64,000 nucleotides of DNA from Paenibacillus alginolyticus DSM 5050 = NBRC 15375 (GTDB lineage Bacteria; Bacillota; Bacilli; Paenibacillales; NBRC-103111), in the NCBI RefSeq assembly GCF_000422905.1, contig NZ_AUGY01000028.1, positions 1 through 64,000 of the forward strand, read 5' to 3'. The position numbers and the translations under genes are program-made. How positions within the stretch are numbered: position 1 is the first letter of the stretch; each line of letters starts with the position of its first letter. Below the pieces are notes generated by a model. That model ran no database searches and was not told the DNA's origin. It saw only the letters and a list, made by a program, of their open reading frames with translations. Below, piece by piece: positions 1-17,290 of this stretch.

Positions 1-174
1 GAACGACGAAGCCTCATCATTACGACCAATCTCGAATTCTCCAAGTGGGGAGGCATCTTCACCGACGACCAGATGGCTGCGGCGATGATTGACCGTCTTG
101 CTCATCACGGACAGCTCATTGTTTTTGAAGGAGAAAGTTACCGCCTTAAGCACGCATTAATGCGTCAAAAGTGA
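1..174 (+). CDS. istB: IS21-family ATPase helper IstB, C-terminal fragment
   Basis: The first 57 codons of the window, open at the left edge, encode the C-terminus of IstB, the AAA+ helper that loads the IstA transposase in IS21-type transposition. The run SLIITTNLEFSKWG, then FTDDQMAAAMIDRL and the ending in ESYRLKHALM, is the characteristic end of the family. It stops at TGA 172-174, directly before the terminal repeat array of the element. The rest of istB and istA must lie outside the window to the left, so whether the IS is intact cannot be judged. Confidence 0.93.
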   Translation, partial: ERRSLIITTNLEFSKWGGIFTDDQMAAAMIDRLAHHGQLIVFEGESYRLKHALMRQK

Positions 175-207
175 CCGATTAACTGGAAATTCCACAGGGA
201 ATTTCAT

Positions 208-312
208 GATAAAACCAGGGAATTTCATGATAAAACCAGGGAATTCCTGATGATAAAACCAGGGAAAAACCGATGATTATACCAGGGAAAAGCTGTTGAT
301 AAAACCAGGGAA
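208..312. repeat. IS21 terminal repeat array
   Basis: Five copies of a GATAAAACCAGGGAA-like unit begin at 208, 229, 252, 275 and 298, spaced 21, 23, 23 and 23 bp. Regular sub-terminal repeats about two helical turns apart are typical transposase binding sites at IS21-family ends. Read on the minus strand they encode a meaningless repetitive tail (IPWFYH-type) on the broken integrase frame. Confidence 0.8.
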
Positions 313-329
313 TTTCACTTGACAAAACA

Positions 330-868
330 CTGTATATGTCTGCGTCATAGTCGATTTCTTTTGGCTTCGGGACCCCCTCCATAGGGTTGTCCTTTATTAT
401 TTTCCATTCCTTTGCCCAGTGAAAAATGCTTTTTAGGACCCGATAGTATTTTACAATGGAATTAGACCCTAAGCCGTCGTTCCCCAGCTTGTCTATAAAA
501 TCCATAACGTGTAAAGACTTTATCTTCTCCATATTCATGCTGCCGAAATGCGGTATAATGCGTTTTTCTACAATGTTGTTGTAGTTCTGCTGAGTCTTTT
601 CCTCCAGCTTCTTTTCTACGAACCGCTTTTGCCACTCACGTACGAAGGATTCGAAATGCATTTTTTCAAGATCAATGTACTGGCCTGTTTGTACTTCCGC
701 TGAAAATTTTTCGAGTTCTTTCTGTAATTCCCGCTTTCCTAAATCCTCTTTACAGAAATCCTTCGCATGTATCATCTTTCTGCGCCGAATTCGTTTTCCA
801 TCTGGGCCGTAGCCTAATTCTACTGTAAGACGGTACGAACCTTTACCGCGGTTTTCAATAGTCGCCAT
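330..868 (-). pseudogene. int: tyrosine site-specific integrase, truncated by IS insertion
   Basis: About 180 codons of a phage or ICE integrase remain. They cover an N-terminal arm-binding domain (about residues 1-55, rich in KGKRIRRRK-type basic runs) and a SAM-like core-binding domain (about 65-165, ending HWAKEWKIIKDNPMEGV). The catalytic domain with its R-H-R-Y residues is missing, because the IS21 right end replaces the sequence after about residue 180. The ATG at 866-868 has a GGAAGG ribosome site lying over the end of the upstream repressor gene, two bases away, so the two form a leftward operon. The product cannot recombine DNA, so the element is probably fixed unless an integrase is supplied in trans. 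Confidence 0.88.
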
Positions 869-870
869 TT

Positions 871-1533
871 TTAACCTTCCCCCTTAAATAACAGCTGGAG
901 CATAGATTCTACACGCTGGCAGTCGTTTTGGCTTAGCTTCTTATTTCCATAACCGATATTTGGAAGTTTAAGCAAATCCTCTAAATTTAACAGAGACGTT
1001 TCACGTTCCCAGTCATATTCCAATCGCCCCAGTTCCAAGTTTAATAACATGCGCCTACGGCTATCAAGGGATAGTACCCCATCAATATAAGTACGGGGTG
1101 TGAAGTTTTCTGTGGTTATGTGCATTCCATAATTTTGGGCGGTTAACCATAAGGGCTGTAAAAAAATTTCCTTGAATTTGTTGCTCTCCATGTCGGCGAA
1201 CTTAGTTATTTCATGTGCAAAATATTTTTCTACTTCCTGGTCGTTCTCATAAAACCGGGTGTCGAGCGCCCCGGCAAGCATAGCGGCGTCTTCAAAGTTG
1301 GAATCTGACTTTTTAATCAACCCGGCTTTCTCAAGCAAGCTATCAGCGGGAACGTCCAGCGCTTTAGCCAGATTCTTCAAGTTTTCAAGTTTCGGTACGC
1401 CCCTAGAACCGTTTTCAATCCTAGAAATCTGCGCATCACTTACCCCCGAAAGTTCGGCCAACTGCTTTAACGTGTAGCCCCTTTTCTTACGCAATGTTTT
1501 CACAAAATCCCCGAAACCTTTTAAGTTCTCCAT
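871..1533 (-). CDS. XRE/CI-type repressor of the mobile element
   Basis: A helix-turn-helix XRE domain occupies about the first 65 residues (RKKRGYTLKQLAELSGVSDAQISRIENGS, split here by the family's recognition helix). It is followed by about 150 residues I do not recognise. No LexA-type Ala-Gly cleavage site with Ser/Lys pair and no HExxH ImmA-like motif is visible, so self-cleavage on DNA damage is unlikely from sequence. The ATG at 1533 is chosen. A TTG at 1548 lies directly against the AAAGGAG ribosome site, with no spacing. The gene is transcribed left with the integrase and diverges from the excisionase-like gene. It is probably the master repressor of the element. Confidence 0.82.
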   Translation of the reverse strand: MENLKGFGDFVKTLRKKRGYTLKQLAELSGVSDAQISRIENGSRGVPKLENLKNLAKALDVPADSLLEKAGLIKKSDSNFEDAAMLAGALDTRFYENDQEVEKYFAHEITKFADMESNKFKEIFLQPLWLTAQNYGMHITTENFTPRTYIDGVLSLDSRRRMLLNLELGRLEYDWERETSLLNLEDLLKLPNIGYGNKKLSQNDCQRVESMLQLLFKGEG

Positions 1534-1577
1534 ACGCGAACTGCTCAACTCCTTTGAAATAGATTTAATTAAAACTT

Positions 1578-1583
1578 ACTATA
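1578..1583 (-). promoter_or_regulatory. candidate -10 box of the repressor promoter
   Basis: On the minus strand TATAGT (plus-strand ACTATA) lies about 45 bases upstream of the repressor start, with a weak TTTACC -35 hexamer 17 bases further up. The repressor operator repeats lie just beyond it, which would allow autoregulation. This is inference from spacing and motif only. Confidence 0.4.
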
Positions 1584-1622
1584 CAGCAATACAACCAAAA
1601 GGTAAATAATTAACTTTAATAT

Positions 1623-1698
1623 ATTACCATTTAGACAATTTTATCATTGCCTAGTTGCATCTACTGTGTTATTGTAAAATTACCAAATGACAATTTTA
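1623..1698 (+). promoter_or_regulatory. direct-repeat operator pair bracketing the excisionase promoter
   Basis: Two near-identical 20-21 bp repeats (ATTACC...GACAATTTTA) lie at 1623-1643 and 1679-1698. Between them is a candidate sigma-A promoter, TTGCCT (1647-1652), a 17-base spacer and TATTGT (1670-1675). The left repeat abuts the -35 hexamer and the right repeat covers the expected start point. That is the layout of a repressor-controlled early promoter, and the neighbouring XRE repressor is the natural candidate to bind it. Confidence 0.55.
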
Positions 1699-1739
1699 GT
1701 TTAAAACTTTACTACCAAAATGAAATGGAGAGGTTGGAA

Positions 1740-1931
1740 ATGGAGAGAATCACATTAACACCCGAAGAAGCTGCTGATTTCCTGGGCTTGAAACGGACGA
1801 AAATCTATGAGTTGGTTCGACAAGGCAAAATCCCGCATATCCGACCAGCTGGCCGTCTCATTTTATTCCGTCGGGATACTTTAACCGACTGGCTTGAGAA
1901 GCAAGAAAAGGCGAGCATTAGCAACTGCTAA
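1740..1931 (+). CDS. excisionase-like helix-turn-helix protein
   Basis: This 63-residue protein is a winged-helix HTH of the excisionase/MerR-like type. It has LTPEEAADFLGLKRTKIYEL followed by VRQGKIPHIRPAGR and LFRRDTLTDWL. Such proteins act as recombination directionality factors or early transcription activators in phages, satellites and ICEs. The ATG at 1740 is preferred over one at 1725 because a GGAGAGG ribosome site sits six bases upstream of it. The gene diverges from the repressor and heads the rightward gene block. Confidence 0.82.
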   Translation: MERITLTPEEAADFLGLKRTKIYELVRQGKIPHIRPAGRLILFRRDTLTDWLEKQEKASISNC

Positions 1932-1953
1932 ACGCATTTATGGAGGGAAGCAT

Positions 1954-2145
1954 ATGGAATACAGCCGCCGCGCTGTATGGCTGGCCGTAGACAGCGAATA
2001 CGGCGACCGTCTAACTGAAATCACGCGGGAGCATGTCGCGCTGGCAAAGGAACTGATTGTAAACCGGGAAGGCAGTACATCATACACCGGGATATATATA
2101 CCACCCGGCCCAGCTGCGCAAGGAACGCGACGCAATTATTTCTAA
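1954..2145 (+). CDS. small protein of unknown function, possible frameshift
   Basis: This 63-residue frame starts at an ATG with a good GGAGGG site. I do not recognise the protein. Its first 40 residues look natural (EYSRRAVWLAVDSEYGDRLT, then ITREHVALAKELIVN), but the end (GIYIPPGPAAQGTRRNYF) does not. The +1 frame from about 2066 reads GYIYHPAQLRKERDAIISKF and runs to a stop at 2183-2185, overlapping the next gene in the usual coupled way. A one-base indel between about 2066 and 2090, natural or from sequencing, could have split one longer gene. Confidence 0.55.
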   Translation: MEYSRRAVWLAVDSEYGDRLTEITREHVALAKELIVNREGSTSYTGIYIPPGPAAQGTRRNYF

Positions 2146-2165
2146 ATTTGAAGGGAGAACTACCA

Positions 2166-2381
2166 ATGAAGCCGTCAACACTTGAACAACAAGCAGAACA
2201 ATTGGTAAAGGTAAAGCAGGAACGGAAGCAAGCGGAACGTGAAAAGCGGGCAGCGGAGGAAGAAATGCAGCGTATTCGGGAGAAAATCCAGGCCCTTGGT
2301 TTTGACCCGAACAACCTGGACGAAGCTGTAAGGAAATTGGAAACAGAAATCGAAGCCGAATTGAACAAATGGGCGGCGTGA
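2166..2381 (+). CDS. small coiled-coil protein of unknown function
   Basis: This 71-residue, highly charged protein has a long heptad-like helix (LVKVKQERKQAEREKRAAEE) and a short C-terminal helix. The ATG at 2166 follows a GGGAG site and is chosen over an upstream in-frame TTG. Its position between an excisionase-like gene and the replication gene suggests an accessory early function. Nothing in the sequence fixes the role. Confidence 0.7.
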   Translation: MKPSTLEQQAEQLVKVKQERKQAEREKRAAEEEMQRIREKIQALGFDPNNLDEAVRKLETEIEAELNKWAA

Positions 2382-2501
2382 ATGAATAGGGAACTGATAC
2401 AGGTCTTCCAGCTTTTTAGCCCCCTAGGAGACTTAATAAAAAGAAAGCCTTACGGTGAGAGGTTAACCGGGAACCTACTGGCGGCGGTGAGCCAGGCATA
2501 A
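2382..2501 (+). CDS. possible 39-residue peptide
   Basis: A short frame begins at the ATG immediately after the TGA of the preceding gene and ends at TAA 2499-2501. It encodes MNRELIQVFQLFSPLGDLI and a basic tail. No strong ribosome site precedes it, so it would depend on translational coupling. The length alone is not convincing and no family is recognised. Confidence 0.4.
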   Translation: MNRELIQVFQLFSPLGDLIKRKPYGERLTGNLLAAVSQA

Positions 2502-2535
2502 GGAGGTAGAACTTAATTTTTAGGGGAGATCAGCT

Positions 2536-5430
2536 ATGAAAGAAAAAGAGAAAGGCCGCCCCGAACAGGGCGACCTAATAACTACGGAACTGGCTACACC
2601 AATTATACCACAAAAACAGCGGACCGTAGCAAGTTTTGATAATATCCCAACAGAATTGAAATCGCTGAAACAGTGGGTTGTATGGGAGTATGAAACGCGC
2701 AACGAGAAAGCAACGAAAGTACCGAAGCAGACCGACGGAAGAAATGCAAGTACGAACCGACCGAATACCTGGACGACGTTTGCCACAGCAGCGGAAGCCT
2801 ACTGCACGGGCAGTTTCGATGGTATAGGCTTCTGTTTCAGTGAAAACGACCCTTTCGTAGGTGTGGACCTGGACAAGATCGACGGCTGGAAAGACAAAGT
2901 CGACGGTATTATCCGTAGTCTGGATAGCTATACGGAAGTAAGCCCGTCGGGTAACGGCTACAGGGTATTCGTGAAAGGTAAGAAGCCGGGAAAAAACGAG
3001 CGAAAGGCCGGGCATAACCTAGAGATTTACGACCATACCAGCACTCGCTTTTTAACACTGACCGGGAACCACGTACCGGGGCTACCTACTGTCATAGAAG
3101 AACGCCAGGAAGCGGTTGAACGGTTGTATTACGATTACCTAGGAGTGAAGGAAGTAAAACCGCCAAAGCCTAATACGCCTCCTGTGAATAAATTGCCCGA
3201 TAGCATCACAGATGAGGAAGTATGGCAGGCTATGTTTGAAAGTGAAGCCGAGGAAAGTATCCACGCCCTGTACGACGGCGATCTATCCGGGTATAACGGG
3301 GACCATTCTGCGGCAGACCTTGCCCTATGCGCATACCTTGCCTGGTTCACCAAAAAGGACGAACAGCGCATTGACCGCATGTTTAGGCAGACGAAGCTGT
3401 ATCGTCCAAAATGGGACGAATACCGAGGCGAACTGAAATACGGGGAAATGACAATACAGAAGGCCGTAACGGGTACGGAATTGCCCGAAGAACGCCTGGC
3501 AGCAGCCCGGCAGACGGTAGCCGACACTATGGGAAAGGTAGCCGCAGGCGATAAGAAGGCGGCCCTGGGCGGTGAAATGATAGGCGCTCTAGCCCTGCTG
3601 CAAGATAAGGCCCCGGCTGATTTCGCTAAGGTGAAGATCGACCTAAAGCAGTACGGGCTTCCGCTGCGTGACATAGAAAAGGCTATAAACCTGGAGATGT
3701 CTCAACTTCGCCTGGTTAAGTCGGGTACAGCTGTTGCCCAGCCGAAGAGGGAAAATACGCTGAGAAGGGACTGGGTAATTGATGCGAACGGTTGCCTGTG
3801 CCGCCGTAAACTTTTGGAAGAAGGCTGGCAGAATATCCTGATAACCCGAACCGCACCAACGATTCAAAAAGTGCTTATTGCGGAACAGTCGGGTCTTGAA
3901 TACTGGGATATTGGGTTTAAGACGGTACGGGGCCGCCAGATATCGGTACACGTATCTAGGGAAGGCATTTCGACCCGGCGGGGCATTATTACAGAACTAG
4001 CCGGGCATGGCTTCGATATAGGCGAAGATAACGCCAGGGACGTTATCAAATATCTACGGGACTACGCGGCTGCCTACGCCCAGGAAACCGAGGAACAGCG
4101 CTTCGTAGAGCATTTCGGTTGGTCCGAAGGTTACAGCAGCTTCGTAATCGGTAATGACGTAATAGGTAGCCAGGACGTTATTTTCAAAGCGCCAGGGACT
4201 GGGGAACAACAACTGGCCGACGGCTTTACGATAAGCGGGACCTTCGAAGGTTGGAAGCAGCTAACACGGCTGATCGGGAATAAGCCCTGGTCCATGTTCA
4301 AATTGTACCAGGCTTTCCTGCCACCACTTCTGCCGATACTGCGAACGAACGGTTATGCGCTGGCAAACTGGGGCGAATCTAGCGAAGGCAAGACGTTAAC
4401 AGACCAAATCGCCGTCAGTGTGTGGGGGAACCCGAATTATAAAGGCGAAGACCCTAGCATATTACAGCAGGGTAGGGGAATGACGAACGATAGGCTGGAA
4501 AAGGGGCTGGCAGTTTCTAGGCATTTGCCGTATTTCCTGCAAGACGCACACGAAGCGCGGGCCGATATTGCAGCTGCCCTGCATAATGTCGAAATGGGGC
4601 AGACCAGTCCGAAGGGCGACATATCGAACGGTTCGCGGAAGGTTAAGCAAATAAGAACGGTATGGTTCATTACCAGCGAAACGTCTATCACAGGGTTAAA
4701 GCCCCAGGGCGGCATTGCGGCCCGCGTAATCGAGAAAAACGGTTCGCCGCTGGCTGAGAAAAACCCGCTGCTGGCGCACCAAATCGAACGCGCCATACTG
4801 GAGCATTACGGACACGCAGGCAGGCGGTTTATCGAATATCTAATTGCTAACCGGGAGCGCTGGGATGAGTGGCGGCGGGACTTCATGGACATGCAGGAAG
4901 AAGCCATACAGCAGACCGCCGACTTGGATAATAAGGTTAGCCGCATGAATAAAGCGTATATCGCTGTTCTAATGGCTGGTGTTCTAGCCGACGAAGCCCT
5001 TGGGCTGGGGCTGGGTCAGGAAAAGATCGAACAGGATATAGGCATCTGCTTAAATGAATCGCGGGAAACGATGGATACCCGGCCCTATTACGATAAGGCG
5101 CTGGACGTACTGCGAGAGTGGATTGTATCGAACCGAAACGAGTTTTACATAGTCGGCAGCAATAGCGACTTCGGCAGGAACGTTCCGGGGGTGTGGAATG
5201 AAAAAGAAAAATTCGTAGCCATGTTCCCGGAACGTGCAAAGGAAATCCTGGAACTTAGGGATTATGATATTCGCCGTTGTTCTACCGAATGGCGGGACAA
5301 GGGTTACATAAACCCGGACCCCAAAGGGAAATCGACTAAAGCTACCTGGTATCCACCAGTGAAAATTACGCAGCGAATGTACCAATTCACTTACGCGGCA
5401 CTTGGATTCGATGATCTTACCCCTACTTAA
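2536..5430 (+). CDS. NrS-1-type primase-polymerase fused to DUF927-like helicase
   Basis: This 964-residue replication protein has two parts. The N-terminal part (about 35-205) is a prim-pol fold of the phage NrS-1 polymerase type: SLKQWVVWEYE, FVGVDLDKIDGW with the metal-binding acidic pair, YTEVSPSGNGYRVFVKG, and EIYDHTSTRFLTLTGNHV. The C-terminal part (about 455-790) resembles DUF927 proteins of mobile elements, with a Walker A-like GESSEGKT at about 613-620 and an acidic FLQDAHEA segment. Together these would prime, copy and unwind element DNA. An iteron-like array follows directly. The start has an AGGGGAG site 8 bases upstream. It is probably the element's own replication initiator. Confidence 0.82.
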   Translation: MKEKEKGRPEQGDLITTELATPIIPQKQRTVASFDNIPTELKSLKQWVVWEYETRNEKATKVPKQTDGRNASTNRPNTWTTFATAAEAYCTGSFDGIGFCFSENDPFVGVDLDKIDGWKDKVDGIIRSLDSYTEVSPSGNGYRVFVKGKKPGKNERKAGHNLEIYDHTSTRFLTLTGNHVPGLPTVIEERQEAVERLYYDYLGVKEVKPPKPNTPPVNKLPDSITDEEVWQAMFESEAEESIHALYDGDLSGYNGDHSAADLALCAYLAWFTKKDEQRIDRMFRQTKLYRPKWDEYRGELKYGEMTIQKAVTGTELPEERLAAARQTVADTMGKVAAGDKKAALGGEMIGALALLQDKAPADFAKVKIDLKQYGLPLRDIEKAINLEMSQLRLVKSGTAVAQPKRENTLRRDWVIDANGCLCRRKLLEEGWQNILITRTAPTIQKVLIAEQSGLEYWDIGFKTVRGRQISVHVSREGISTRRGIITELAGHGFDIGEDNARDVIKYLRDYAAAYAQETEEQRFVEHFGWSEGYSSFVIGNDVIGSQDVIFKAPGTGEQQLADGFTISGTFEGWKQLTRLIGNKPWSMFKLYQAFLPPLLPILRTNGYALANWGESSEGKTLTDQIAVSVWGNPNYKGEDPSILQQGRGMTNDRLEKGLAVSRHLPYFLQDAHEARADIAAALHNVEMGQTSPKGDISNGSRKVKQIRTVWFITSETSITGLKPQGGIAARVIEKNGSPLAEKNPLLAHQIERAILEHYGHAGRRFIEYLIANRERWDEWRRDFMDMQEEAIQQTADLDNKVSRMNKAYIAVLMAGVLADEALGLGLGQEKIEQDIGICLNESRETMDTRPYYDKALDVLREWIVSNRNEFYIVGSNSDFGRNVPGVWNEKEKFVAMFPERAKEILELRDYDIRRCSTEWRDKGYINPDPKGKSTKATWYPPVKITQRMYQFTYAALGFDDLTPT

Positions 5431-5435
5431 ACCAA

Positions 5436-5767
5436 CCTTATACCTAAAACGCAGAAAGGTGTAAGGCTGAAAACCATTGGTATATAAGGCACTATCACAA
5501 TTGTTATATGAACCTTACACCTATTACACCTAAAAATAATATATATGGGTATTTATATAAATCTCATCTGTGATATGAGGGGGGTGTTAGATATGAATTA
5601 ATTTTATTTTTAACTGTAATATACGCATACGCAGAAAAAATGGTGTAAGTGTGTAAGGTTCGTCTGTGAAAGTGCTCTAAACCCTTGATACGACTGGTTT
5701 TTTATCATTACACCGGAAGGCTGAAAAGGCGTAAGGAATGGTATAAGAACTTGTGTAAGGTGTAGGG
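5436..5767. repeat. iteron-like GGTGTAAGG array, candidate replication origin
   Basis: This 400-base gap between genes holds about twelve copies of a 9-bp motif close to GGTGTAAGG in both orientations. They centre near 5440, 5462, 5484, 5517, 5526, 5646, 5654, 5710, 5732, 5744, 5756 and 5763. Several spacings are close to 11, 22 or 33 bp, which puts those sites on one face of the helix. An AT-rich stretch (about 5530-5630) separates two clusters. Initiator sites beside an AT-rich unwinding region and next to the replication gene suggest an origin. A multi-site regulatory region is the alternative. Confidence 0.6.
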
Positions 5768-5833
5768 AAACTCCGCCTTCCGGGCGCCGCAGGCCCACTT
5801 TACGGAACGAACTTAAGAAAGGGGTTTTAAGCA

Positions 5834-6298
5834 ATGACGTTCGACGAAGAAATCCGGTACTTAATGCGGCAAGAATTAGACGATGTTACCACGCTGGTAG
5901 CTAGTTCCGCCGATGCTAAGTTGCAGCTTCATGAGAAGCGTTTAGCAGCTGCGCAGGCCAGGTTGGAGGCATCTGTATTTAATTCAGCATTTCCCCGGTA
6001 TGCCAACCTTCTAACAGGGTCCGCTAGAAAAGAATACTTAGCCAAACTAAGACTTTATGACAAGGCGATCAGCCGTCTTATGTCGGTAGAAAGCGAAAAG
6101 CGCGAAGCCCGGCGTCAGGTAATCGAAGCTTTAACCGATCTACGGACACGCTCTGCCTGGTACTTAGAGCGTAGAATTGAGATTGAGAAAAAGCATTGGG
6201 CCGATATGTTAGAAAACGATCCGGATCTATATCCATACGACCCTGATCACTTTGAACTGCATATGCAGGACATAGAAAACGGCATATTCGATGTATAA
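5834..6298 (+). CDS. helical protein of unknown function
   Basis: This 154-residue protein is predicted mostly alpha-helical, with long charged stretches (LQLHEKRLAAAQARLEASVF and LSAISRL-like segments) and an acidic, aromatic C-terminus (DPDLYPYDPDHFEL). A strong AAAGGGG site precedes its ATG. No family is recognised. It opens the second rightward block of the element after the origin-like array, next to the terminase-like gene, which hints at a packaging or structural accessory role by context only. Confidence 0.75.
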   Translation: MTFDEEIRYLMRQELDDVTTLVASSADAKLQLHEKRLAAAQARLEASVFNSAFPRYANLLTGSARKEYLAKLRLYDKAISRLMSVESEKREARRQVIEALTDLRTRSAWYLERRIEIEKKHWADMLENDPDLYPYDPDHFELHMQDIENGIFDV

Positions 6299-6340
6299 GC
6301 TTCCCAGCTAGATTCATCACTGGGGGGGAGGTGATATGCA

Positions 6341-7201
6341 ATGGTTGATTCAGAGACAGAGGAAAAAGCGAAATTCCATCCTTCGGCTGACGAAAAAAAC
6401 TGGATTATCGAAAGGCAGGGACGCCGAATTCTCGCGTGTGGTGCGCAGCGCAAACGTGTTAAGGCAAGATGTAGAAATCGGGCGGGCATGGGGACAAATC
6501 ACACAGGCTGGGGCAGGTGTAAATTTTGTGCCGGACTAAGTACCGGGCCGAAGACAGAAGAAGGCAAGGCCGCAGCTGCGGCAAATTCCAGGAAGCACGG
6601 ATTCTACAGCAACGTATTAAGTCCAGCGGAACGTATAGCCTACGAGGAACAGCGTGCGGTAAAGTCATTAAGTTTAGAGGATGAGATCTATTTACAGAAA
6701 GCGAAGATAGCCGTTTATTTAGCGGACTGGCGGCGTAAATGGGATTCGTACTATAAGCGCAAGCTGGCCGAAAAGTACGTAAAGTACCGCTGTACAGCGC
6801 CCGACTGTGACGGTTTCCACGTACGGGGCGACCTGGAACAGAAGCCGGGCTATTGTAACCGCTGCGGCGAAAAGCACCTGGAAGAAGTCGAACGCTGGGT
6901 AGCGAATCGCACCCCAGAAGACGCGGAACGGTACGCCGACAGCATGACGAAGGTTTACTATTCCGAAGGCGAAGGGGCGCGCAGCTTCTACCACGCTGGA
7001 AGCCTGGAAGACAGAACGCTAGACCGGGCATTAAATACCCTGAGCCGCATGGTAGAGAAACACGCCAGGCTTAATTCCGATCAAGGAGACGACTTGCTGG
7101 GCGCGATTAACGCAGAGCTTCGCGCAGCTTCAAGGGGCAAGGTAAGTATTTCCTGGGGCGGCCCGGCGCAGAAGCGTTTAACCACGGAAAACGCAAAGTA
7201 A
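6341..7201 (+). CDS. HGG-type zinc protein, possible small terminase subunit
   Basis: This 286-residue protein begins with a C4 cluster (CGAQ...RC...GRCKFCAG) followed by LSTGPKTEEGKAAAAANSRK and HGFYS. That resembles phage proteins with an HGGxSxGPKTxEGK block, often found beside terminase genes. A second zinc ribbon (CTAPDC...CNRCGEKH) lies at about 148-185. In the first cluster the usual CxxHGG histidine position reads Cys (CKFCAG), so the metal ligand appears swapped. The ATG at 6341 has GGAGGTGAT with correct spacing, while the overlapping frame from 6336 does not. A DNA-binding packaging role is inference. Confidence 0.6.
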   Translation: MVDSETEEKAKFHPSADEKNWIIERQGRRILACGAQRKRVKARCRNRAGMGTNHTGWGRCKFCAGLSTGPKTEEGKAAAAANSRKHGFYSNVLSPAERIAYEEQRAVKSLSLEDEIYLQKAKIAVYLADWRRKWDSYYKRKLAEKYVKYRCTAPDCDGFHVRGDLEQKPGYCNRCGEKHLEEVERWVANRTPEDAERYADSMTKVYYSEGEGARSFYHAGSLEDRTLDRALNTLSRMVEKHARLNSDQGDDLLGAINAELRAASRGKVSISWGGPAQKRLTTENAK

Positions 7202-7336
7202 GTAACCGCGTAAAACGGAGAAAACACGAGAAAAACGAAGTTCGTTAGTGTCGGTTTTTGGGCGTTTATTGCATTGTTCCACGGAAGCTAAAACGCCTGC
7301 TACGGTCAAATTTGCCTGAATTTGGGGAAAAGTTTT

Positions 7337-7379
7337 CCAGACATATGTACAAAATCAGATATTTTATACATATGTCTGG
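7337..7379. repeat. 13-bp perfect inverted repeat
   Basis: CCAGACATATGTA (7337-7349) and its exact complement TACATATGTCTGG (7367-7379) flank a 17-base AT-rich loop, in a 187-base gap between two rightward genes. There is no T-run after it, so it is not a normal terminator. It could be an operator, a recombination or replication site, or a hairpin. It ends 27 bases upstream of the next start codon. Confidence 0.7.
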
Positions 7380-7406
7380 GGCAAATCGGTGGAAATGGGG
7401 GCTAGC

Positions 7407-7823
7407 ATGCGGATAGAGGGCTACATTTCGAAGAGGAACATAAAGCGCTGGTTGGAGAATTACGAATCCCTGGCTGCTGGTGACAGGCCTTACGATGCTA
7501 TACCGGGAAGTAGCGGCCCGAAGAACACCGACGGAGTAGTAAGCGGCGGGCGGCTGAATAAAATTATGTTGGACGATGCGCTGGAGCAGCTGCGGAAGGA
7601 AATGTCCTTTTCTTATTATTGCGTTCGGTTTACATATATCAGACCGATCCTACAGAAAGAAGCCCTACGCAAACTTAACGTAAGGCGGCCCGTATTTGTC
7701 CGGGGACTGGAGCAGGGCGAAGAATTCATATACCGGGCAATAAACGGCGGCGCTGCCGAAGAAAAGGAAAGCCTGCAAGCTGCGCCAGGCTACAAACGAC
7801 TTGCGGAATTGATAACTCGTTAA
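7407..7823 (+). CDS. protein of unknown function
   Basis: This 138-residue protein has a basic N-terminus (ISKRNIKRWLENYESLAAGD), a central region LNKIMLDDALEQLRKEMSFS and a C-terminal FVRGLEQGEEFIYRAINGG. The ATG at 7407 is chosen because GGGGG lies six bases upstream, where the in-frame GTG at 7389 has no site. Its size and its place before structural genes resemble small late-gene activators of phages, but I see no diagnostic motif. Confidence 0.7.
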   Translation: MRIEGYISKRNIKRWLENYESLAAGDRPYDAIPGSSGPKNTDGVVSGGRLNKIMLDDALEQLRKEMSFSYYCVRFTYIRPILQKEALRKLNVRRPVFVRGLEQGEEFIYRAINGGAAEEKESLQAAPGYKRLAELITR

Positions 7824-7982
7824 CGTTGTAAAGTTGCCAAGAAATAAAGAAGTCTTTACTTCTGCAAGACCCACGACCATTGGGTTAGGTCGGCGACCTC
7901 TACGGCTGGTGGTTAACAGTCGGCGTAGAGCCTTGACGGTTTATAGGTCAAACCGATTCTAACTTTATGGTGGTGATGGAAA

Positions 7983-10601: not shown

Positions 10602-10627
10602 TCCGAAACACAGGAGGGTATCTGAAA

Positions 10628-10876
10628 ATGAAAGAAAAAAGAATTTTATTAGAAAATGCGGTGCTAAAGCAAGCTGCTACACTTAATCCGATTCACATGA
10701 AGCAAGTTGTACTGGCGCTGGAAGACCGGGAATACGCAGAATTACTGGAGTACATTGACCAGGACGAATTGAATCCGACCAGCGTAAACAGGGCGTTAAA
10801 GCACCTGGCCGCAACTGAACCGAATTTATTCTACTCGCCTGAAAAGGCGAAAGACCTGGACAACGGTAGCAATTAA
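10628..10876 (+). CDS. small protein of unknown function
   Basis: This 82-residue protein is acidic and helical (HMKQVVLALEDREYAELLEY, then LNPTSVNRALKHLAA). It follows the tape-measure gene by 26 bases, with an AGGAGGG site before its ATG. It could be a tail-associated accessory protein by position, but no family is recognised. Confidence 0.7.
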   Translation: MKEKRILLENAVLKQAATLNPIHMKQVVLALEDREYAELLEYIDQDELNPTSVNRALKHLAATEPNLFYSPEKAKDLDNGSN

Positions 10877-10905
10877 AATAAATCCAAAGTAGGGGGAATT
10901 TAACC

Positions 10906-11673
10906 ATGATTAGAGCGTATGAAGAAATGGTAGAGAGTATTAAGGCGTTTGACGCCGCACAGGGGATGGACAACGGACAACTGGCAGCAGCAGCTGCGGA
11001 AGTGGAGCAAGCCCGCCAGCGGTATAATAGCCTGCTGGAAGAAGCCCTGGAGAACCCGGAACTGGCCGCAGATGTAGCCAAGGCTCAGGGAATGGTAACT
11101 ATCATGGAAACGAAACTGCAACGTCTACAGGCAAAGCTGGATGCTGGAAAGAAGCCGTACCCGGACGGCATGGCGGTAGCCTTTATGAACGTCCAGGGGG
11201 AAATTCGCCGCAAAATCGCAGACGGTAGCCTGCTTCGAGAGGAATTCCAGCCCCACCTAAACGACATGGCCCAGCATAGGCAGGCCTACCTGGGAAAATT
11301 AGCTACTGTGCTTGTCAAGATGCACGAAGTAAATAAAACTTTAGAGCATATCCAGCACAGCACAGCAAGCGCCGTACTTCGTTACACTGGCAAAGAAGTA
11401 AGATACGGTCTTTTCGGCTCCGAAGCATTGTCAGAATCGGACTTCAAGGAATGGGCCTGGGTTTATCAGAACGCTTACCACGAAGACCTAGGGAAAATAA
11501 GAAAAGCAGCCCTGGAGGAAGCACACCCCGAAACAAAGCTGCACCCGGTACGCAGTACGCCGAATGTAACGGTTAAAGAAGAAAAGGCCCCAGAAGCAGC
11601 GGTACACATGCAAACGCAACAATTGCAGCAATCGGACAACGGCAGTTATGTTCATCATATGCAAACAACTTAA
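10906..11673 (+). CDS. coiled-coil protein of unknown function
   Basis: This 255-residue protein is mainly helical and coiled-coil in its first 150 residues (AAAAAEVEQARQRYNSLLEE and MVTIMETKLQRLQAKLDAG). Its C-terminus is low-complexity and rich in Gln and His (MQTQQLQQS...HHMQTT). It is the last gene of the rightward block and is closed by a strong terminator. Its place after the tape measure suggests a structural or assembly accessory, which remains inference. Confidence 0.7.
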   Translation: MIRAYEEMVESIKAFDAAQGMDNGQLAAAAAEVEQARQRYNSLLEEALENPELAADVAKAQGMVTIMETKLQRLQAKLDAGKKPYPDGMAVAFMNVQGEIRRKIADGSLLREEFQPHLNDMAQHRQAYLGKLATVLVKMHEVNKTLEHIQHSTASAVLRYTGKEVRYGLFGSEALSESDFKEWAWVYQNAYHEDLGKIRKAALEEAHPETKLHPVRSTPNVTVKEEKAPEAAVHMQTQQLQQSDNGSYVHHMQTT

Positions 11674-11688
11674 CTTACAGGAAAATTC

Positions 11689-11735
11689 AAAGCCGCGTAG
11701 GACGGGATACAGCCCCGCTACGCGGCTTTCGTTTA
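11689..11735. terminator. bidirectional terminator between converging genes
   Basis: AAAGCCGCGTAG and its exact complement CTACGCGGCTTT form a 12-bp stem around a 17-base loop, with T-rich sequence to the right and A-rich sequence to the left. It can end both the rightward block and the leftward three-gene block. Confidence 0.85.
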
Positions 11736-11794
11736 GCCTGGTACGCTAATTAATTTACTGCTTCCGCGTCATGGTTTTCAGCCGCAGCTTGCGA

Positions 11795-11998
11795 TTAATC
11801 ATGACTGTGCTGTTCTATAAGTTTTAAAGTGTTATTCCATAAGTGCCTTATAGGCTTCGTGCGATTTCCCCAGGCTTTTAGAAGTTCTAGTGCCCCGGCT
11901 GGGTTCTTTTCAGCTAGTTCGGCTAACTTAACAGGTAAGTACTCCATTTGGTGAAGTAATTCGACATCAATCGGGAAACCATCATTTACTTTTTGCAT
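11795..11998 (-). CDS. small paralogous protein, copy 3 of 3
   Basis: This 67-residue protein is the distal member of a three-gene minus-strand set that shares one pattern: P-I-(D/E), then YLPVKLAELAEKN, AGALELLKAWG and IRHLWNNTLKLIE. The invariant parts are YLPxKLxEL, a WG pair and an LW near the C-terminus. AAAGGCGGG precedes the ATG. I do not recognise the family. Three diverged copies in tandem suggest repeated duplication under selection. Confidence 0.72.
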   Translation of the reverse strand: MQKVNDGFPIDVELLHQMEYLPVKLAELAEKNPAGALELLKAWGNRTKPIRHLWNNTLKLIEQHSHD

Positions 11999-12064
11999 TG
12001 TGTATCCCGCCTTTCTTATTTGTTGTTCTAAATATTTAATACAATTGCTGAAATTCCTGGTCTA

Positions 12065-12298
12065 TTACGGGGCTTTTGTATACATGGCTAATGCTGCTGT
12101 TACTTCATCCCATAGTTGGGGAACCTCTTTTTTCTTCGCGCCCCAGTCACGTAAATAACCAATGGCGGCTTCCTGGTCGCGGTAGGATAGTTCCGCTAAT
12201 TTAACTGGCAAATAGGCCGTCATATGAACTAGTTCCCAGTCAATCGGCCATGGATAGTTTGAAGGTGGTGTTCTCATTCCTTTAATATTCCGAGACAT
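12065..12298 (-). CDS. small paralogous protein, copy 2 of 3
   Basis: This 77-residue protein shares the YLPVKLAELSYRDQEAAIGY, LRDWG and PQLWDEVTAAL pattern with its two neighbours, and carries an extra 12 residues at the N-terminus. Its start overlaps the end of copy 1 by 17 bases and has a GAGGGG site inside that gene, so the two are translated from one message. Function unknown. Confidence 0.72.
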   Translation of the reverse strand: MSRNIKGMRTPPSNYPWPIDWELVHMTAYLPVKLAELSYRDQEAAIGYLRDWGAKKKEVPQLWDEVTAALAMYTKAP

Positions 12299-12491
12299 TG
12301 GATTTCCCCTCGTCTATGGCTATTAGGGTTTCATTCCAAAGGTGGGTAATGGGCATCCTACCTTCACCCCATGCCCGCAGCAACTGAAATGCGGCTTCTT
12401 CGTTTACATACGAAAGTTCTGTTAGCTTACAAGGTAAGTAGGCCAGTTGCTTTATACGTTCGATAGGTATAGGCAGTTTATTTGTTGGCAT
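12282..12491 (-). CDS. small paralogous protein, copy 1 of 3
   Basis: This 69-residue protein is the first gene of the leftward set, with AAAAGGAG ten bases before its ATG. It shares PIPIERIKQLAYLPCKLTEL, AAFQLLRAWG and ITHLWNETLIAID with copies 2 and 3. All three are short, helical and lack signal or membrane segments, so they are probably cytosolic. An immunity, anti-repressor or phage-interference role would fit the location but is not shown by the sequence. Confidence 0.72.
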   Translation of the reverse strand: MPTNKLPIPIERIKQLAYLPCKLTELSYVNEEAAFQLLRAWGEGRMPITHLWNETLIAIDEGKSNVSEY

Positions 12492-12547
12492 GAATATTCA
12501 ACTCCTTTTTATGCTAGAGTACAGTACGCCAACGCATACCGCTAGAT

Positions 12548-12644
12548 TTATCTCTAGATAACACCATTAACTTTAGATAACAATATGACGGTATAAAAAA
12601 TAGCGTGTATAATAGTAAAGACATCTTTACTACTACTAAGTAGT
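12548..12644. promoter_or_regulatory. divergent back-to-back promoters with three palindromes
   Basis: Rightward: ATGACG (12585-12590), 17 bases, TATAAT (12608-12613). Leftward, on the minus strand: TTGTTA (12578-12583), 17 bases, TATCTA (12555-12560). The two -35 boxes are one base apart. Palindromes lie over key positions: TTATCT-CT-AGATAA (12548-12561) on the leftward -10, GTAAAGA-CA-TCTTTAC (12615-12630) at the rightward start point, and ACTACT-A-AGTAGT (12632-12644). A half-copy TTTAGATAAC recurs at about 12572. This looks like a regulated switch between the paralog genes and the gene to the right. Confidence 0.55.
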
Positions 12645-12723
12645 TATTTTTTAAGTACTAGAATTCACATAACTGGAAGCCTTAAGTTAGCTTTATGAAT
12701 AAAGGGGAAGTAGGTTCTGTAAT

Positions 12724-13002
12724 ATGAGATTCGAAGCGAAGGGTACTATTCAAGGCCACGAAGTTAACGTAGCCTGGAAAGACGGCAGCTTAACCGGGAA
12801 CGGCCAGGCTATATGCATGGTATTAACCGAAGCGGCTAACCTGGAAGGCGAACTGGTAGGCCCAGTAGGGCAGCAGACCGATACGAAACACTTAGACGAC
12901 CCTTTATCTGCAATGATTATTATTGACAGGGTACTAGCCGACGCGGTATTTACCGGGGAAGTACCCAAACCAGGTAGCGCGCCTCCTTGGGCTGTTATCT
13001 AG
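12724..13002 (+). CDS. small protein of unknown function
   Basis: This 92-residue protein has a beta-rich start (MRFEAKGTIQGHEVNVAWKD) and a helical, acidic middle (DDPLSAMIIIDRVLADAVF). It lies downstream of the rightward promoter with TATAAT at 12608 and its start has a GGGGAAG-type site. It is divergent from the three paralogs and shares their control region. No family is recognised. Confidence 0.68.
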   Translation: MRFEAKGTIQGHEVNVAWKDGSLTGNGQAICMVLTEAANLEGELVGPVGQQTDTKHLDDPLSAMIIIDRVLADAVFTGEVPKPGSAPPWAVI

Positions 13003-13387
13003 TTCACATGATGAAATTAAGAAGCTTGGAGCGGAAGAGGCCGTTACGGTGGTAGGCTGAAGACGTCACAGAAGAACAACGTTTATAGTGTCATGAAGAT
13101 TGAGGAATTAACAGGTGCAAGAAAGCCGACACTGACTGGAACTACATACAATGTTGGCTGTCTGAGAAAACTAATCTGTGGTAAATCTAGTATAAATACA
13201 AGGAATTAAGCATTTTCTGTCGAATATGGCTATGATTTAAGTTGTAACGATTGACGAGAGTAGCCTTTCTAAGCTATGTTAAATTAAAAACCGCCCGGAT
13301 AGGTAAATAAAGGGAATTGGCCCAGGTTGTATGATCATATAAATTGTATAATAAATTTAGAACATCTTTTGGAAAGGAGGGGAGTAC
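13003..13387. other. degenerate 385-base gap with short ORF remnants
   Basis: No convincing gene is present. Two short in-frame stretches look like decayed coding sequence: one about 13,010-13,062 reading DEIKKLGAEEAVTVVG, and one with an ATG near 13,093 reading MKIEELTGARKPTLTG and ending near 13,209. Base composition turns AT-rich towards the defence genes. This may mark the scar where the ietAS cargo was inserted. Confidence 0.4.
13347..13352 (+). promoter_or_regulatory. candidate -10 box for ietAS
   Basis: TATAAT stands 35 bases upstream of the ATPase start in an AT-rich stretch. No good -35 hexamer is found at 16-18 bases; the best upstream match, TTGTAT, is only 14 away. The box is therefore tentative. 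Confidence 0.35.
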
Positions 13388-14374
13388 ATGAACGGAACCT
13401 TGCTTAAACGTCTGTTCAAAGCAATTAACATCGGCAGTAACGACGATCTTCAAAAGATAGCTCAAGCAATTATTGATGATGAACTAAAAAAAGGGCATAC
13501 ACAGTTAGCTAAAGAGCTGTCAAACGCAATGTTAGCTAGCGGCCGATTGATAAAGCCAGAAGCAACTTTTGAAATGAATACAAATTCAATGTCAGTATTA
13601 CCAAAGAGTAAGAGATATGAAACGCCCCTTGCAACATATATACCAAGTGATAAGCTACAGCATGACATGATCTTGCCTAATACAGTTGAAGAAAAGTTTA
13701 TTAGAATTGAAAAAGAATACGCGGCCAGAGAACGTTTAGCATTGTATGGATTTACTCCAAGAAAAAAAATATTGCTTTTTGGGCCTCCAGGCTGTGGGAA
13801 GACATTAGGGGCACAAAGATTAGCTTGGAGAACCGGCTTGCCATTGATAAAGGTAAGATTCGATTCTTTAATTTCTTCATATCTCGGTGAAACAGCTTCT
13901 AATCTTCGTTCTATTTTTGATTCAGCTGCCCATTCACCTTGTATTTTGTTTTTTGATGAATTCGATTCAATCGCAAAATCTAGAACAATGGACCAAGATG
14001 TTGGAGAAATTAAGCGTGTAGTAAACAGTTTTTTGCAATTGCTGGATGAGTACGAGTCTCCCGGGCTTTTAGTTGCTGCAACAAACTTGAATGATCAAAT
14101 TGACGCCGCGATATGGAGACGATTTGACGATAGTATCGAAATTCCTAAACCTGGTCCTGAGGAATTGAAACAGATTATTGTTGTAACGCTTTCGGGTATG
14201 AAAACTGAACGCTTTGATTGGAACATTTTATTGAAGGAAGCAGAGGGTTTCTCTGCCGCTCAAATAGTAAGAGCATCTGGTGATGCGGCTAAAAAAGTAA
14301 TACTTGATTCATCTGAATTAGTAACACAAAAAGTGCTACTGTCAGCAATCGCCGAAAATAGAGGAGTTAACTAA
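13388..14374 (+). CDS. ietA: AAA ATPase of an IetAS-type defence system
   Basis: This 328-residue AAA ATPase has Walker A GPPGCGKT at residues 132-139, Walker B CILFFDEFDS, sensor-1 VAATNLND and an arginine-finger region AAIWRRFDDSIEIPKP. The first 90 residues form an N-domain not recognised elsewhere in the window. A gene of this size directly followed by a subtilisin-like protease matches the IetAS pair. That pair is known from Ti-plasmid stability/incompatibility and from screens for anti-phage systems. AAAGGAGGGG precedes the ATG. AT-rich composition compared with the upstream genes suggests separate acquisition as cargo. Confidence 0.85.
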   Translation: MNGTLLKRLFKAINIGSNDDLQKIAQAIIDDELKKGHTQLAKELSNAMLASGRLIKPEATFEMNTNSMSVLPKSKRYETPLATYIPSDKLQHDMILPNTVEEKFIRIEKEYAARERLALYGFTPRKKILLFGPPGCGKTLGAQRLAWRTGLPLIKVRFDSLISSYLGETASNLRSIFDSAAHSPCILFFDEFDSIAKSRTMDQDVGEIKRVVNSFLQLLDEYESPGLLVAATNLNDQIDAAIWRRFDDSIEIPKPGPEELKQIIVVTLSGMKTERFDWNILLKEAEGFSAAQIVRASGDAAKKVILDSSELVTQKVLLSAIAENRGVN

Positions 14375-14380
14375 GAAGAC

Positions 14381-16972
14381 ATGTCAAACCCATTCCAGCA
14401 TATTAAACTATCACTTGTAAAAAATGCACCTCAAAAGAAGCCAAAGCCTAGAGTAATACCAAAAAAGCAGCAAACAGCAGATAATCTTCTAAATAGGAAC
14501 AGTCATTATAAAAACTTAGAGAATTCACGACATCTAATCACTCAGGATTGGTTACACAGCACAGAAAAGAGACAACTAGACAACCTGCCAGAAATGCCTG
14601 GTGCGTTGTCTATTTTTTTGCAATTAGATACAAGAGATTTTTCATTAGAAAAACTCAGGGCCTATGGTATAGAGGTTATTGGTGAATTTGAAGACGGGTT
14701 TATAATTGGTTCCTCTACTGAAATATCCTTAGGGACTCTGGCAGAAAAAATAAAAAAATTTGCTGCGGGAAGTCAACATGATGTTGCAGGACTGTGGAAT
14801 ATAATAAACGGTATTTCTTGGAGGTTCGACAGAATACTATCTGAAGAATTAAGGAAAGAATGGCCGTTTAACCCGAACCATATTTTTGTTGTAGAAGTTG
14901 GCGTTGCATGTATGGGGATGGATGACGTTCCTGAACATCCAAGTAAACGTAAAAAGAGTTATAAAACTGAAGAGGATTATCGTAAGGCTGTAGAAAAGTG
15001 GGAAACAAAGAGGGATGCTATTTATCAAAAATGGGATGACTTAGCAGATACAAGATATTCTCAGTTGATGAAAGTTGTTAATTTCTATGGTGGTGAGGAT
15101 TTATCAGGGTACATGGAAGGGGAACATAATTCTGAGACAAGCTTACCCGATTGTTTTACACTAAAAATACGTATAAACGCTAAAGGCTTGATCGATATAG
15201 TCGAAAATTACCCTTACGTTTTTGATATTTCGGAAGCAGACAGTATAGAGTATGATATTTCGGAAAACTCTCAAGAAGAAGTAGTCTCAGGCAATTTAAC
15301 ATTCAAAGAACCTGCAGAAGATGCACCAGCAGTGTGTGTTATTGATAGTGGTATTCAGGAAAGACATCCTTTTCTTAGATCAGCGTTGGATGATAGTGCG
15401 TCTAGAAGTTGGATTGGTAGTTCTACAGATGTAGCGGATTATGTTCAAAATGGAGGTCATGGTACATCTGTTGCTGGAGCAATTTTATATCCTAGACAAG
15501 TTCCAAAGCAAGGAAATGTTGAATTTCATTGCTGGATACAAAATGCAAGAATCTTGGATGGAAATAATAGTATGCCCGCTAGTTTATTTCCGCCAAAAGT
15601 TGTTAGAGAAATTGTAGATCACTTTTATTATGGGGAGAAAAATACAAGAATTTATAATCATTCGATAAATAGTAACCATCCGTCTAGAATAGTCCATATG
15701 AGTGCTTGGGCAGCACAACTCGATCAATTATCCTGGGAAAAAGATATACTTTTTGTTGTTTCTGCAGGAAATCTACCAAAAAGTTCTCGATACAGATCAT
15801 TAATACGATTAAGTATTAGCGAACATGTTCAGAATGGTCGTTTATACCCTGATTATCTACTTGAATCATCGAGTAGAATAGCAAGCCCGTCTCAGAGTCT
15901 TCAGGCAGTAACAGTTGGATCCATAGGTTTATCTGAATTGGTAGGGTTGTACACCTCTTTTTCAAAAGAAAATGAACCCTCATCGTTTTCTTGTACTGGT
16001 CCGGGAATATGGAATTCAATTAAACCAGAAGTTGTAGAGTTTGGCGGATGTTACGCCTTTGATAATGGAAATCCAAGTAACATTTTACTGCGGGATGATT
16101 TAAGTCCTGAACTTGTTAGTTCGACCTTAAACGGGGGAGCTACCGTGAGAAAGGATAAAGTAGGAACATCGTTTTCTACTCCCAAAGTTTCTAGTATCTT
16201 AGCCCATATTCAACAAGCATTTCCGAATGAATCTACACTACTATACAGAGCATTATTAATACAATCGGCAAGATGGCCTAATTGGGCGAGTAACAGGGGC
16301 GATAAAAATAATGTAATTAGACACATTGGTTATGGTATTCCAGACGTTATCCGTTCAACTGAAAATTCCCCCAATAGGATAACTTTAATAACTACTGGTG
16401 ATGTTCAAATTAAAGGCAAACAAGTGCACATTTATGAAGTTAAGATTCCTGAAGAGTTGAGAAGACCGGGAAATTCATATGATATTCGTATTGATGTTAC
16501 TTTGTCTTACAAGGCACAGCCAAGGCGAACAAGAAGGAATCGTCAAAGGTACCTTTCCACCTGGTTAGAGTGGGAAGTTTCGAAGCTAGATGAATCATCA
16601 ACTTCCTTTGCTTCCAGAATGTTGGAAATAGCTTCAGATGACGTGAGTTCAGATGAAGATGAATTTGAAGAAGGTAGTTCTAAAATTAAATGGTCTATTG
16701 GAAAACAAGGAAATCATGGGATTGTGAAAGGATTTCATCGGAATAGTGGTACGGTCCAAAAGGATTGGGCGATTGTTAAGTCTTATGATCTTGGAGAAAA
16801 ATTCTGTTTAGCGGTAATAGGCCATTTAGGTTGGAATAAGGATATTAATTCAAGTGTGCCATATGCTTTAGCTGTATCATTTGAAGACTTAGATCAAACA
16901 GTTGAAATATATACACAGATGGCTTTAGAAAACCAACTTGAAGTTGAGGAAGAACTGGAAATCCATTTTTAA
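14381..16972 (+). CDS. ietS: subtilisin-like protease of an IetAS-type defence system
   Basis: This 863-residue protein has a long N-terminal region (about 1-310) and a peptidase S8 domain with all catalytic residues: Asp322 in CVIDSGIQ, His360 in GGHGTSVAG, oxyanion Asn464 in VVSAGNLP and Ser597 in GTSFSTPKVSS. A beta-rich C-terminal region follows. There is no signal peptide, so it should act in the cytoplasm, as expected for a toxin-like effector released by the partner ATPase on infection. It starts six bases after ietA with only a weak AAGAAG site, so coupling to ietA is likely. The mechanism is inferred from the family. Confidence 0.86.
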   Translation: MSNPFQHIKLSLVKNAPQKKPKPRVIPKKQQTADNLLNRNSHYKNLENSRHLITQDWLHSTEKRQLDNLPEMPGALSIFLQLDTRDFSLEKLRAYGIEVIGEFEDGFIIGSSTEISLGTLAEKIKKFAAGSQHDVAGLWNIINGISWRFDRILSEELRKEWPFNPNHIFVVEVGVACMGMDDVPEHPSKRKKSYKTEEDYRKAVEKWETKRDAIYQKWDDLADTRYSQLMKVVNFYGGEDLSGYMEGEHNSETSLPDCFTLKIRINAKGLIDIVENYPYVFDISEADSIEYDISENSQEEVVSGNLTFKEPAEDAPAVCVIDSGIQERHPFLRSALDDSASRSWIGSSTDVADYVQNGGHGTSVAGAILYPRQVPKQGNVEFHCWIQNARILDGNNSMPASLFPPKVVREIVDHFYYGEKNTRIYNHSINSNHPSRIVHMSAWAAQLDQLSWEKDILFVVSAGNLPKSSRYRSLIRLSISEHVQNGRLYPDYLLESSSRIASPSQSLQAVTVGSIGLSELVGLYTSFSKENEPSSFSCTGPGIWNSIKPEVVEFGGCYAFDNGNPSNILLRDDLSPELVSSTLNGGATVRKDKVGTSFSTPKVSSILAHIQQAFPNESTLLYRALLIQSARWPNWASNRGDKNNVIRHIGYGIPDVIRSTENSPNRITLITTGDVQIKGKQVHIYEVKIPEELRRPGNSYDIRIDVTLSYKAQPRRTRRNRQRYLSTWLEWEVSKLDESSTSFASRMLEIASDDVSSDEDEFEEGSSKIKWSIGKQGNHGIVKGFHRNSGTVQKDWAIVKSYDLGEKFCLAVIGHLGWNKDINSSVPYALAVSFEDLDQTVEIYTQMALENQLEVEEELEIHF

Positions 16973-16999
16973 TATATTATGGTCTTTAAAAACAAGAAG

Positions 17000-17043
17000 A
17001 AGATCGTTTGGAACCTTTATGGGGGCCAACGATCTTTCAATTT
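17000..17043 (+). terminator. terminator after ietS
   Basis: AAGATCGTT and AACGATCTT form a 9-bp stem, extended by GG/CC pairs with one bulge, followed by a T-rich stretch. It lies 27 bases after the ietS stop. Confidence 0.7.
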
Positions 17044-17049
17044 ATTTTT

Positions 17050-17102
17050 AGATTTTCGGTCCCCAAATGGTCCCCAAATCTGAAAAACACTTCTGTTACA
17101 AT
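17050..17102. other. candidate right attachment site of the element
   Basis: An exact tandem 11-bp repeat GGTCCCCAAAT occupies 17058-17068 and 17069-17079. Read on the minus strand the stretch gives FGDHLGTENLKIN and a stop, which looks like the extreme C-terminus of a phage integrase. This fits an att core lying in the 3' end of int, duplicated at the other element end. The matching left copy lies outside the window, so this is inference. Element genes end at 16972 and host RNA structure begins by 17180, so a boundary must lie between. Confidence 0.45.
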
Positions 17103-17179
17103 TTGATATAAGCAACTGTTGTATATTGAAAACCCTCATATAATAAGGGTTTTAGAAAACTGTACCATAAATTAATAAC

Positions 17180-17290
17180 GACGGCCCTTTTACAGGCCGT
17201 CTCATGGGAGAGGAGAAACCGGACGAAGAGCTTATGGGGAAACGTAAGTCTTCTCCGCGGTTGTCTACGACATTCTCTGATGTCGATAGT
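17180..17290 (+). ncRNA. structured leader upstream of rsmD, ylbH-leader-like
   Basis: This part of the gap before rsmD folds well. GACGGCC/GGCCGTC gives a 7-bp hairpin (17180-17201). A long interrupted helix pairs AACCGGA-GAAGA-CTTA with TAAG-TCTTC-TCCG-CGGTT, and CGACAT/ATGTCG closes a third hairpin (17268-17285). A conserved cis-RNA named the ylbH leader is known upstream of ylbH (rsmD) in Bacillales. The position and folding fit, but I cannot score it against the covariance model. A separate promoter lies downstream of it. Confidence 0.5.

Follow-up and report, generated by a model that had tools for sequence, protein, structure and literature searches.

A roughly 17.7 kb element of Paenibacillus alginolyticus DSM 5050 = NBRC 15375 is, in our judgment, probably a phage satellite resembling the phage-inducible chromosomal islands (PICIs), and its gene content suggests that it most likely parasitizes contractile Paenibacillus phages of the type represented by a prophage of P. 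sinopodophylli. The element begins at the left edge of a 64,000-nucleotide stretch of DNA (the window; bases 1-64000 of contig NZ_AUGY01000028.1, hereafter C25) from an 8.3 Mb genome (G000) with 6.19% estimated contamination, and its size is given with an insertion sequence (IS) subtracted. A more specific reading, which we hold tentatively, is that a compact operon for a tape measure protein, a fragment of a scaffold protein, and an element-specific protein (o10906) re-tools a contractile helper in tail and head alike, that the phage parts go back to at least two events of capture or exchange, and that the element, integrated in a leader RNA, replaces the first hairpin of this RNA with a pairing version of its own. 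A preliminary description of the same DNA had also proposed a satellite with its own tape measure and had named a decayed prophage as the alternative.

We compared the element with related elements and with phages. A sister element in Paenibacillus sp. Root444D2 occupies the same site (11.45 kb between attachment (att) cores), and a third element, in genome G010, has a different integrase and a different site and carries TerS, the tape measure, a 92-aa protein, and a doubled scaffold tail. Genomes G070 and G056 contain o10906, whole or as a fragment, but no tape measure; they do not enter the three-element counts, and G070 serves as a row in the o10906 alignment. The P. sinopodophylli prophage, which carries sheath, tube, and baseplate J genes, was reached through relatives of the tape measure, as were further phage relatives among IMG/VR records. 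Because record L031 is identical (100%) to this prophage, the four phage records represent three phages.

Two neighboring stretches of the prophage yielded 56 open reading frames (ORFs), a mechanical list that includes spurious frames and leaves the left part of the prophage outside. Five of these matched the element: the terS neighbor (72% identity), TerS (64%), the 92-aa protein (74%), the tape measure (61%), and the scaffold (39% over 78 of 260 residues). No relative of the prophage TerL, portal, MuF, major capsid protein, sheath, tube, or baseplate was found in the element among the 56 ORFs compared, in agreement with the preliminary description, which had seen no capsid, portal, large terminase, tail tube, or baseplate gene. 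Three of the phage-shared genes (7389-7823; the scaffold piece, 10628-10876; and 12724-13002) had gone unmentioned in the preliminary description. The sister element gave the same five matches, G010 three, G070 one, and G056 none. Within the fetched part of the phage sharing the five assembly genes (left part again outside), the integrase, repressor, excisionase-like protein, primase, and o10906 were without a relative. A full-length integrase frame that includes the catalytic domain is present in two related elements, which have no further relatives of the structural genes of this phage, as had been expected of a satellite.

The terminase-small-like protein of the preliminary description proved to be a TerS homologue. 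Long matches to it were found in 13 of the 27 viral loci tested, several of them near-duplicates or phages already named; the other 14 gave short TerS motif matches without a terL relative. In all 13 loci with a long match, terL lies downstream of terS and the phrog_23784 gene upstream, with TerL identified by way of the annotated Bacillus phage vB_BboS-125 and no match from Pfam or PHROGs. The gene order of the element differs from that of the phages, in that its TerS gene precedes the phrog_23784 gene and its tape measure gene precedes the scaffold piece. The phage type of L025 and L033, together with vB_BboS-125, resembles the element as the source type of TerS, its neighbor, the tape measure, the scaffold piece, and the 92-aa protein, but these phages have complete head and tail modules, which the element lacks. 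Weak TerS matches occur in G004, G178, G332, and G391.

The backbone has the layout proposed in the preliminary description. The integrase and XRE repressor genes are oriented to the left; the excisionase-like gene, primase-helicase gene, iteron origin, and TerS gene are oriented to the right; and IetAS lies at the 3' end (Table 1). The earlier calls of a repressor, an excisionase-like helix-turn-helix (HTH) protein, and a primase-helicase were borne out by domain profiles, and the iteron array by counting: directly 3' of the primase-helicase gene, nine GTGTAAGG-like sites (at most one mismatch, both strands) fall within 404 bp, where 500 shuffles gave 0.25 on average and never more than 3. 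The G010 element has a different iteron word in the same origin layout. Published accounts of Gram-positive PICIs and Staphylococcus aureus pathogenicity islands (SaPIs) describe the same divergence of int-rep from xis-pri-ori, TerS, and accessory genes at the 3' end (PMC6092414, PMC12409344), and also an origin just beyond the 3' end of the replication gene, in which an AT-rich core is flanked by two groups of iterons (PMC6092414). The lengths of the element (without IS21) and of its sister are comparable to the ~15 kb size criterion for PICIs. Further criteria for PICIs are genes confined to satellites, an att site that prophages never use, and induction, interference, and packaging that depend on a phage. 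The criteria in that account include the absence of phage structural genes (PMC6092414), and because the element has a tape measure, a scaffold piece, and the 92-aa head-module protein, we term it PICI-like only.

Table 1. Features of the element in the window (positions in the window; + and -, strand).
Feature	Position	Strand	Basis or remark
IS21-family insertion, 3' end (istB end and terminal repeats)	1..330	+	IstB_IS21 match; copies on further contigs
Integrase, N-terminal part	179..868	-	Phage_int_SAM_3; true integrase sequence reaches ~base 330; catalytic half on G000:C82
XRE-type repressor (rep/Stl position)	871..1548	-	HTH_3
HTH_17 protein, excisionase-like (xis position)	1647..1931	+	Profile matches
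Two small ORFs (1894-2145, 2148-2381), function unassigned	1894..2381	+	1894-2145 has a G010 relative
Primase-helicase, 964 aa	2536..5430	+	NrS-1 HBD, DUF927, and Cch HTH domains
Candidate origin	5427..5770	+	GTGTAAGG iterons in two groups flanking an AT-rich core (5522-5642, 74% AT)
ORF, function unassigned; G010 element has a relative	5834..6298	+	Sequence match
TerS homologue	6341..7201	+	62-65% identical to TerS of three phages
phrog_23784 protein	7389..7823	+	Phage counterpart directly upstream of terS
Tape measure protein, 872 aa	7983..10601	+	phrog_58, E 1.9e-43; Pfam TMP_3 below cut-off only
82-aa protein, matches central part of phage scaffold	10628..10876	+	Alignment to prophage scaffold
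o10906, 255 aa, element-specific protein	10906..11673	+	Predicted helical, low confidence
Three tandem paralogous small ORFs (11795-11998, 12065-12298, 12282-12491)	11795..12491	-	Function unassigned
92-aa head-module protein	12724..13002	+	Phage counterpart between MuF and scaffold genes
IetA (AAA ATPase)	13388..14374	+	PADLOC model
IetS (subtilase)	14381..16972	+	PADLOC model
Paired GGTCCCC sites, 11 bp apart	17058..17079	+	Putative integrase arm sites
ylbH leader RNA with element-supplied first hairpin	17171..17260	+	RF00516, 66.6 bits; overlaps attR
attR core, 14 bp in common with attL on G000:C82	17201..17214	+	Similarity to empty sites starts at ~17130

The phrog_58 match and the identity to the prophage protein confirm that the element encodes its own tape measure. 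It aligns end to end with the phage protein, keeping both conserved ends, and is 79 aa under the 951 aa of the latter, the difference lying mainly in two blocks at the center and a further one close to the C-terminus. The satellite tape measures are 872 (window), ~927 (sister, with one TGA), and 706 aa long (G010, aligned from an inner start as 701 aa), and those of the related phages 951, 951, and ~827 aa, and a rule that satellite tape measures are shorter was not upheld. At 872 aa, the window protein is shorter than the two phage proteins of 951 aa and longer than that of L032 (~827 aa), and it may be either shorter or longer than that of its helper. The tape measure was found in five of 104 family genomes; relatives also occur in G318, G065, and G083, and G318 looks like a Mu-like prophage judging by its ORFs. 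In the IMG/VR phage L032, ~1.15 kb (10448-11595) interrupts the tape measure gene; the insert holds an HNH-like ORF (by eye), is perhaps an intron, and had no Rfam match. The tape measure of phage ICP1 is also said to be spliced (PMC12987554).

The tape measure gene is followed after 26 nt by the scaffold piece and, after a further 29 nt, by o10906. The 82-aa ORF matched the scaffold in 11 of the 12 scaffold-bearing viral loci. Between the tape measure and o10906 of G010 there is instead a 58-aa ORF in which the scaffold C-terminal tail is repeated twice; 3, 0, and 14 of 20,000 shuffles reached the score observed against three phage tails. Scaffold C-terminal tails bind capsid protein. Two unlike scaffold pieces at the same position point to an action against the helper scaffold, like that of CpmB and Rcm, the scaffold mimics of SaPIs (PMC12409344). 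CpmB is likewise a small mimic (PMC12409344).

In the mechanism that we propose, helper infection would relieve repression, and the element would excise and replicate. Its TerS would direct the helper TerL onto satellite DNA, and the scaffold-derived protein would compete with the helper scaffold and alter head size, perhaps with a contribution from o10906. The satellite tape measure would take the place of that of the helper, giving chimeric and possibly re-sized tails, and IetAS would act as defense cargo against other phages. Only the tail step has a direct precedent, since particles of the Vibrio cholerae satellite PLE11 contain the PLE tape measure and not that of ICP1 (PMC12987554, Nature 2026); their tails are ~10 nm shorter for a tape measure difference of 95 aa (PMC12987554). 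By analogy with PLE11, we infer that chimeric and possibly re-sized tails may be built on the satellite tape measure.

PLE11 and the element share a satellite tape measure for a contractile-tailed helper, a presumed one in the case of the element, and in both its length is unlike that of phage counterparts (PMC12987554). PLE11 differs in belonging to another host phylum and in having a tape measure 20% identical to that of ICP1, compared with 61% between element and phage (PMC12987554). Unlike in PLE11, a scaffold piece adjoins the tape measure in the element. As PLEs are described, a tail assembly chaperone gene accompanies tmp, whereas the element has no relative of the phage XkdN-like protein or baseplate genes, although an unrelated chaperone could escape such a comparison. 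Satellite tape measures have already been published for PLEs and, in putative form, for other Vibrio satellites and some capsid-forming PICIs (cf-PICIs) (PMC12987554), which the element recalls in being PICI-like; cf-PICIs are described as encoding their own capsid and packaging proteins (PMC12409344), none of which appeared in the element by the 56-ORF comparison. The PLE paper of 2026 suggests that tail manipulation is more widespread (PMC12987554). We found no Paenibacillus satellite of this kind in the titles or abstract openings of the open-licence PMC literature, though a case may exist elsewhere, and no Gram-positive tape-measure satellite without capsid genes turned up in the open-licence literature, though one may exist. 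If our reading is true, the element would represent a separate Firmicutes lineage of tape-measure satellites, without capsid genes and with tape measure and scaffold piece adjoining, and its parts are close enough to phage proteins for residue-level tests of head and tail takeover.

The same genes might instead belong to a satellite or defense island in which the tape measure and scaffold piece poison the assembly of the helper instead of becoming part of satellite particles. Scaffold fragments lacking the full protein could block head assembly, and IetAS lies in the same element. We nevertheless regard poisoning as unlikely, because the tape measure aligns over its whole length and at both conserved ends with the phage protein, as a working ruler would, and because PLE tape measures occur in particles and their loss is reported to lower transduction by 96-99.9% (PMC12987554).

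Selection and descent bear on whether the element is a satellite or the remains of a virus. Nei-Gojobori dN/dS was 0.11-0.41 in 16 of 17 comparisons across nine genes (one TerS comparison was saturated), with some ratios rough because dS exceeded 1.5 in seven of the 16. The tape measure (0.15-0.26) and primase (0.41) were well away from the value near 1 that the preliminary description had named as speaking against a satellite. Ratios were low between related elements for backbone genes and phage-shared genes alike, which suggests that the gene set is kept by selection and is not the leftover of a dead virus. In trees with few rows, one long branch, and one rough row, the window TerS clusters with L087-type phages, away from the G010 TerS, and the tape measures of the window and the sister form one group (99/98), with G010 apart. 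This separation suggests more than one event of capture or exchange of phage parts.

Several observations weigh against a satellite of contractile phages. Three elements only are available, two of them related by descent at one site. The window copy has its integrase split by IS21, and the sister lacks a relative of the primase and carries an in-frame TGA within the tape measure gene; in the G010 copy, the genes compared are free of such damage. At ~827 aa with the insert excluded, the tape measure of phage L032 is shorter than the 872 aa of the satellite. A TerL query found none of 104 family genomes at E 1e-60, in a set with no positive control, and a sheath query that matched both phage controls found nothing in G000, G046, G056, and G070 and, in G010, matches of no more than 27-29% identity. 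By these two queries, the genomes carrying the elements yielded no phage of the proposed helper type. A decayed prophage that retained a handful of genes by chance would accommodate this damage and the five genes with clear phage relatives, but we rejected it as the principal explanation and consider it very improbable, given the dN/dS values, a gene order not colinear with the phages, a backbone without relatives in the fetched phage stretches, and a G010 element that holds most of the set with another integrase and site and with TerS and tape measure apart in the trees. The preference for a satellite in the preliminary description thus stands.

Two details of the element ends were revised. 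What had been called an integrase remnant is truncated as described, but its cause is an IS21 copy sitting at the contig end. In the sister integrase, residues 11-190 correspond to the piece on C25 and residues 181-394 to the piece on contig C82, so we attribute the truncation to insertion and contig break. The end of C82 can be aligned to the sister element at its left end and carries attL; it is these integrase and left-end matches, rather than a read spanning both contigs, that lead us to infer that C82 is the opposite side of the IS21 break in the same genome. The right end had been placed at 17080, and the actual end is the att core at 17201-17214. Just within both ends of the window element and the sister lie GGTCCCC pairs (11 bp spacing), which we read as arm-type sites of the integrase. 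Neither these pairs nor the position of the att site in a leader RNA had been noted in the preliminary description.

The att core sits within the ylbH leader RNA, upstream of rsmD, and this integration site in a structured leader RNA adds to the interest of the element. The rsmD flank was present in 30 of 30 genus genomes and the tape measure in two of them. Five of the remaining 28 flanks were aligned to the element ends; among these five, G039 retains ~100 bp of extra right-end similarity. The left neighbor gene encodes an FtsH-like M41 peptidase, and because it is also in the G053 flank, the G053 site is empty; the G032 site appears empty from the alignment. The ylbH leader was recognized at attR of the window element and the sister and at both empty sites (window 17171-17260; L024 15641-15731; L058 2206-2296; L063 1441-1531), and was not recognized at attL of either element. 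In both attR copies the first hairpin is unlike that of the host in sequence but keeps its pairing, and the element thus seems to bring along a substitute for the 5' part of the leader that is still able to pair. Elements integrated in tRNA genes restore the tRNA, which offers a parallel.

The cargo was recognized as the IetAS defense system named in the preliminary description, with adjoining IetA and IetS matching PADLOC models at E 3.6e-83 and 4.2e-59 and falling under NCBIfam cut-offs. The o10906 protein of the window is 67-76% identical to those of three other elements and was present in five of 392 order genomes, all from one family (a small sample). It had no match among phages, plasmids, or IMG/VR and no Protein Data Bank (PDB) relative by sequence, and its predicted fold (mean pLDDT 50.6, pTM 0.27) was not used.

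Of the small tandem paralogues of the window (11795-12491), G010 has one or two relatives, G070 a single one, and G056 a single one that is fused. In G070 (L036+L037 14778-24481), o10906, the 92-aa gene, and the small paralogue stand beside two serine-recombinase-like ORFs, together with a distant IetA relative (37%) and no tape measure. The o10906 fragment of G056 (L038 4474-7165) and the G010 element (L018 10538-11865) follow a same-looking rRNA methyltransferase-like gene (by eye) and share left-end sequence, and G056 may therefore contain a decayed copy at the G010 site. The right end of the G010 element was looked for and not found; downstream (L018+L019 22442-30395) are resolvase-like, DNA methyltransferase-like, and AAA/DUF262-like ORFs (by eye), perhaps extra cargo.

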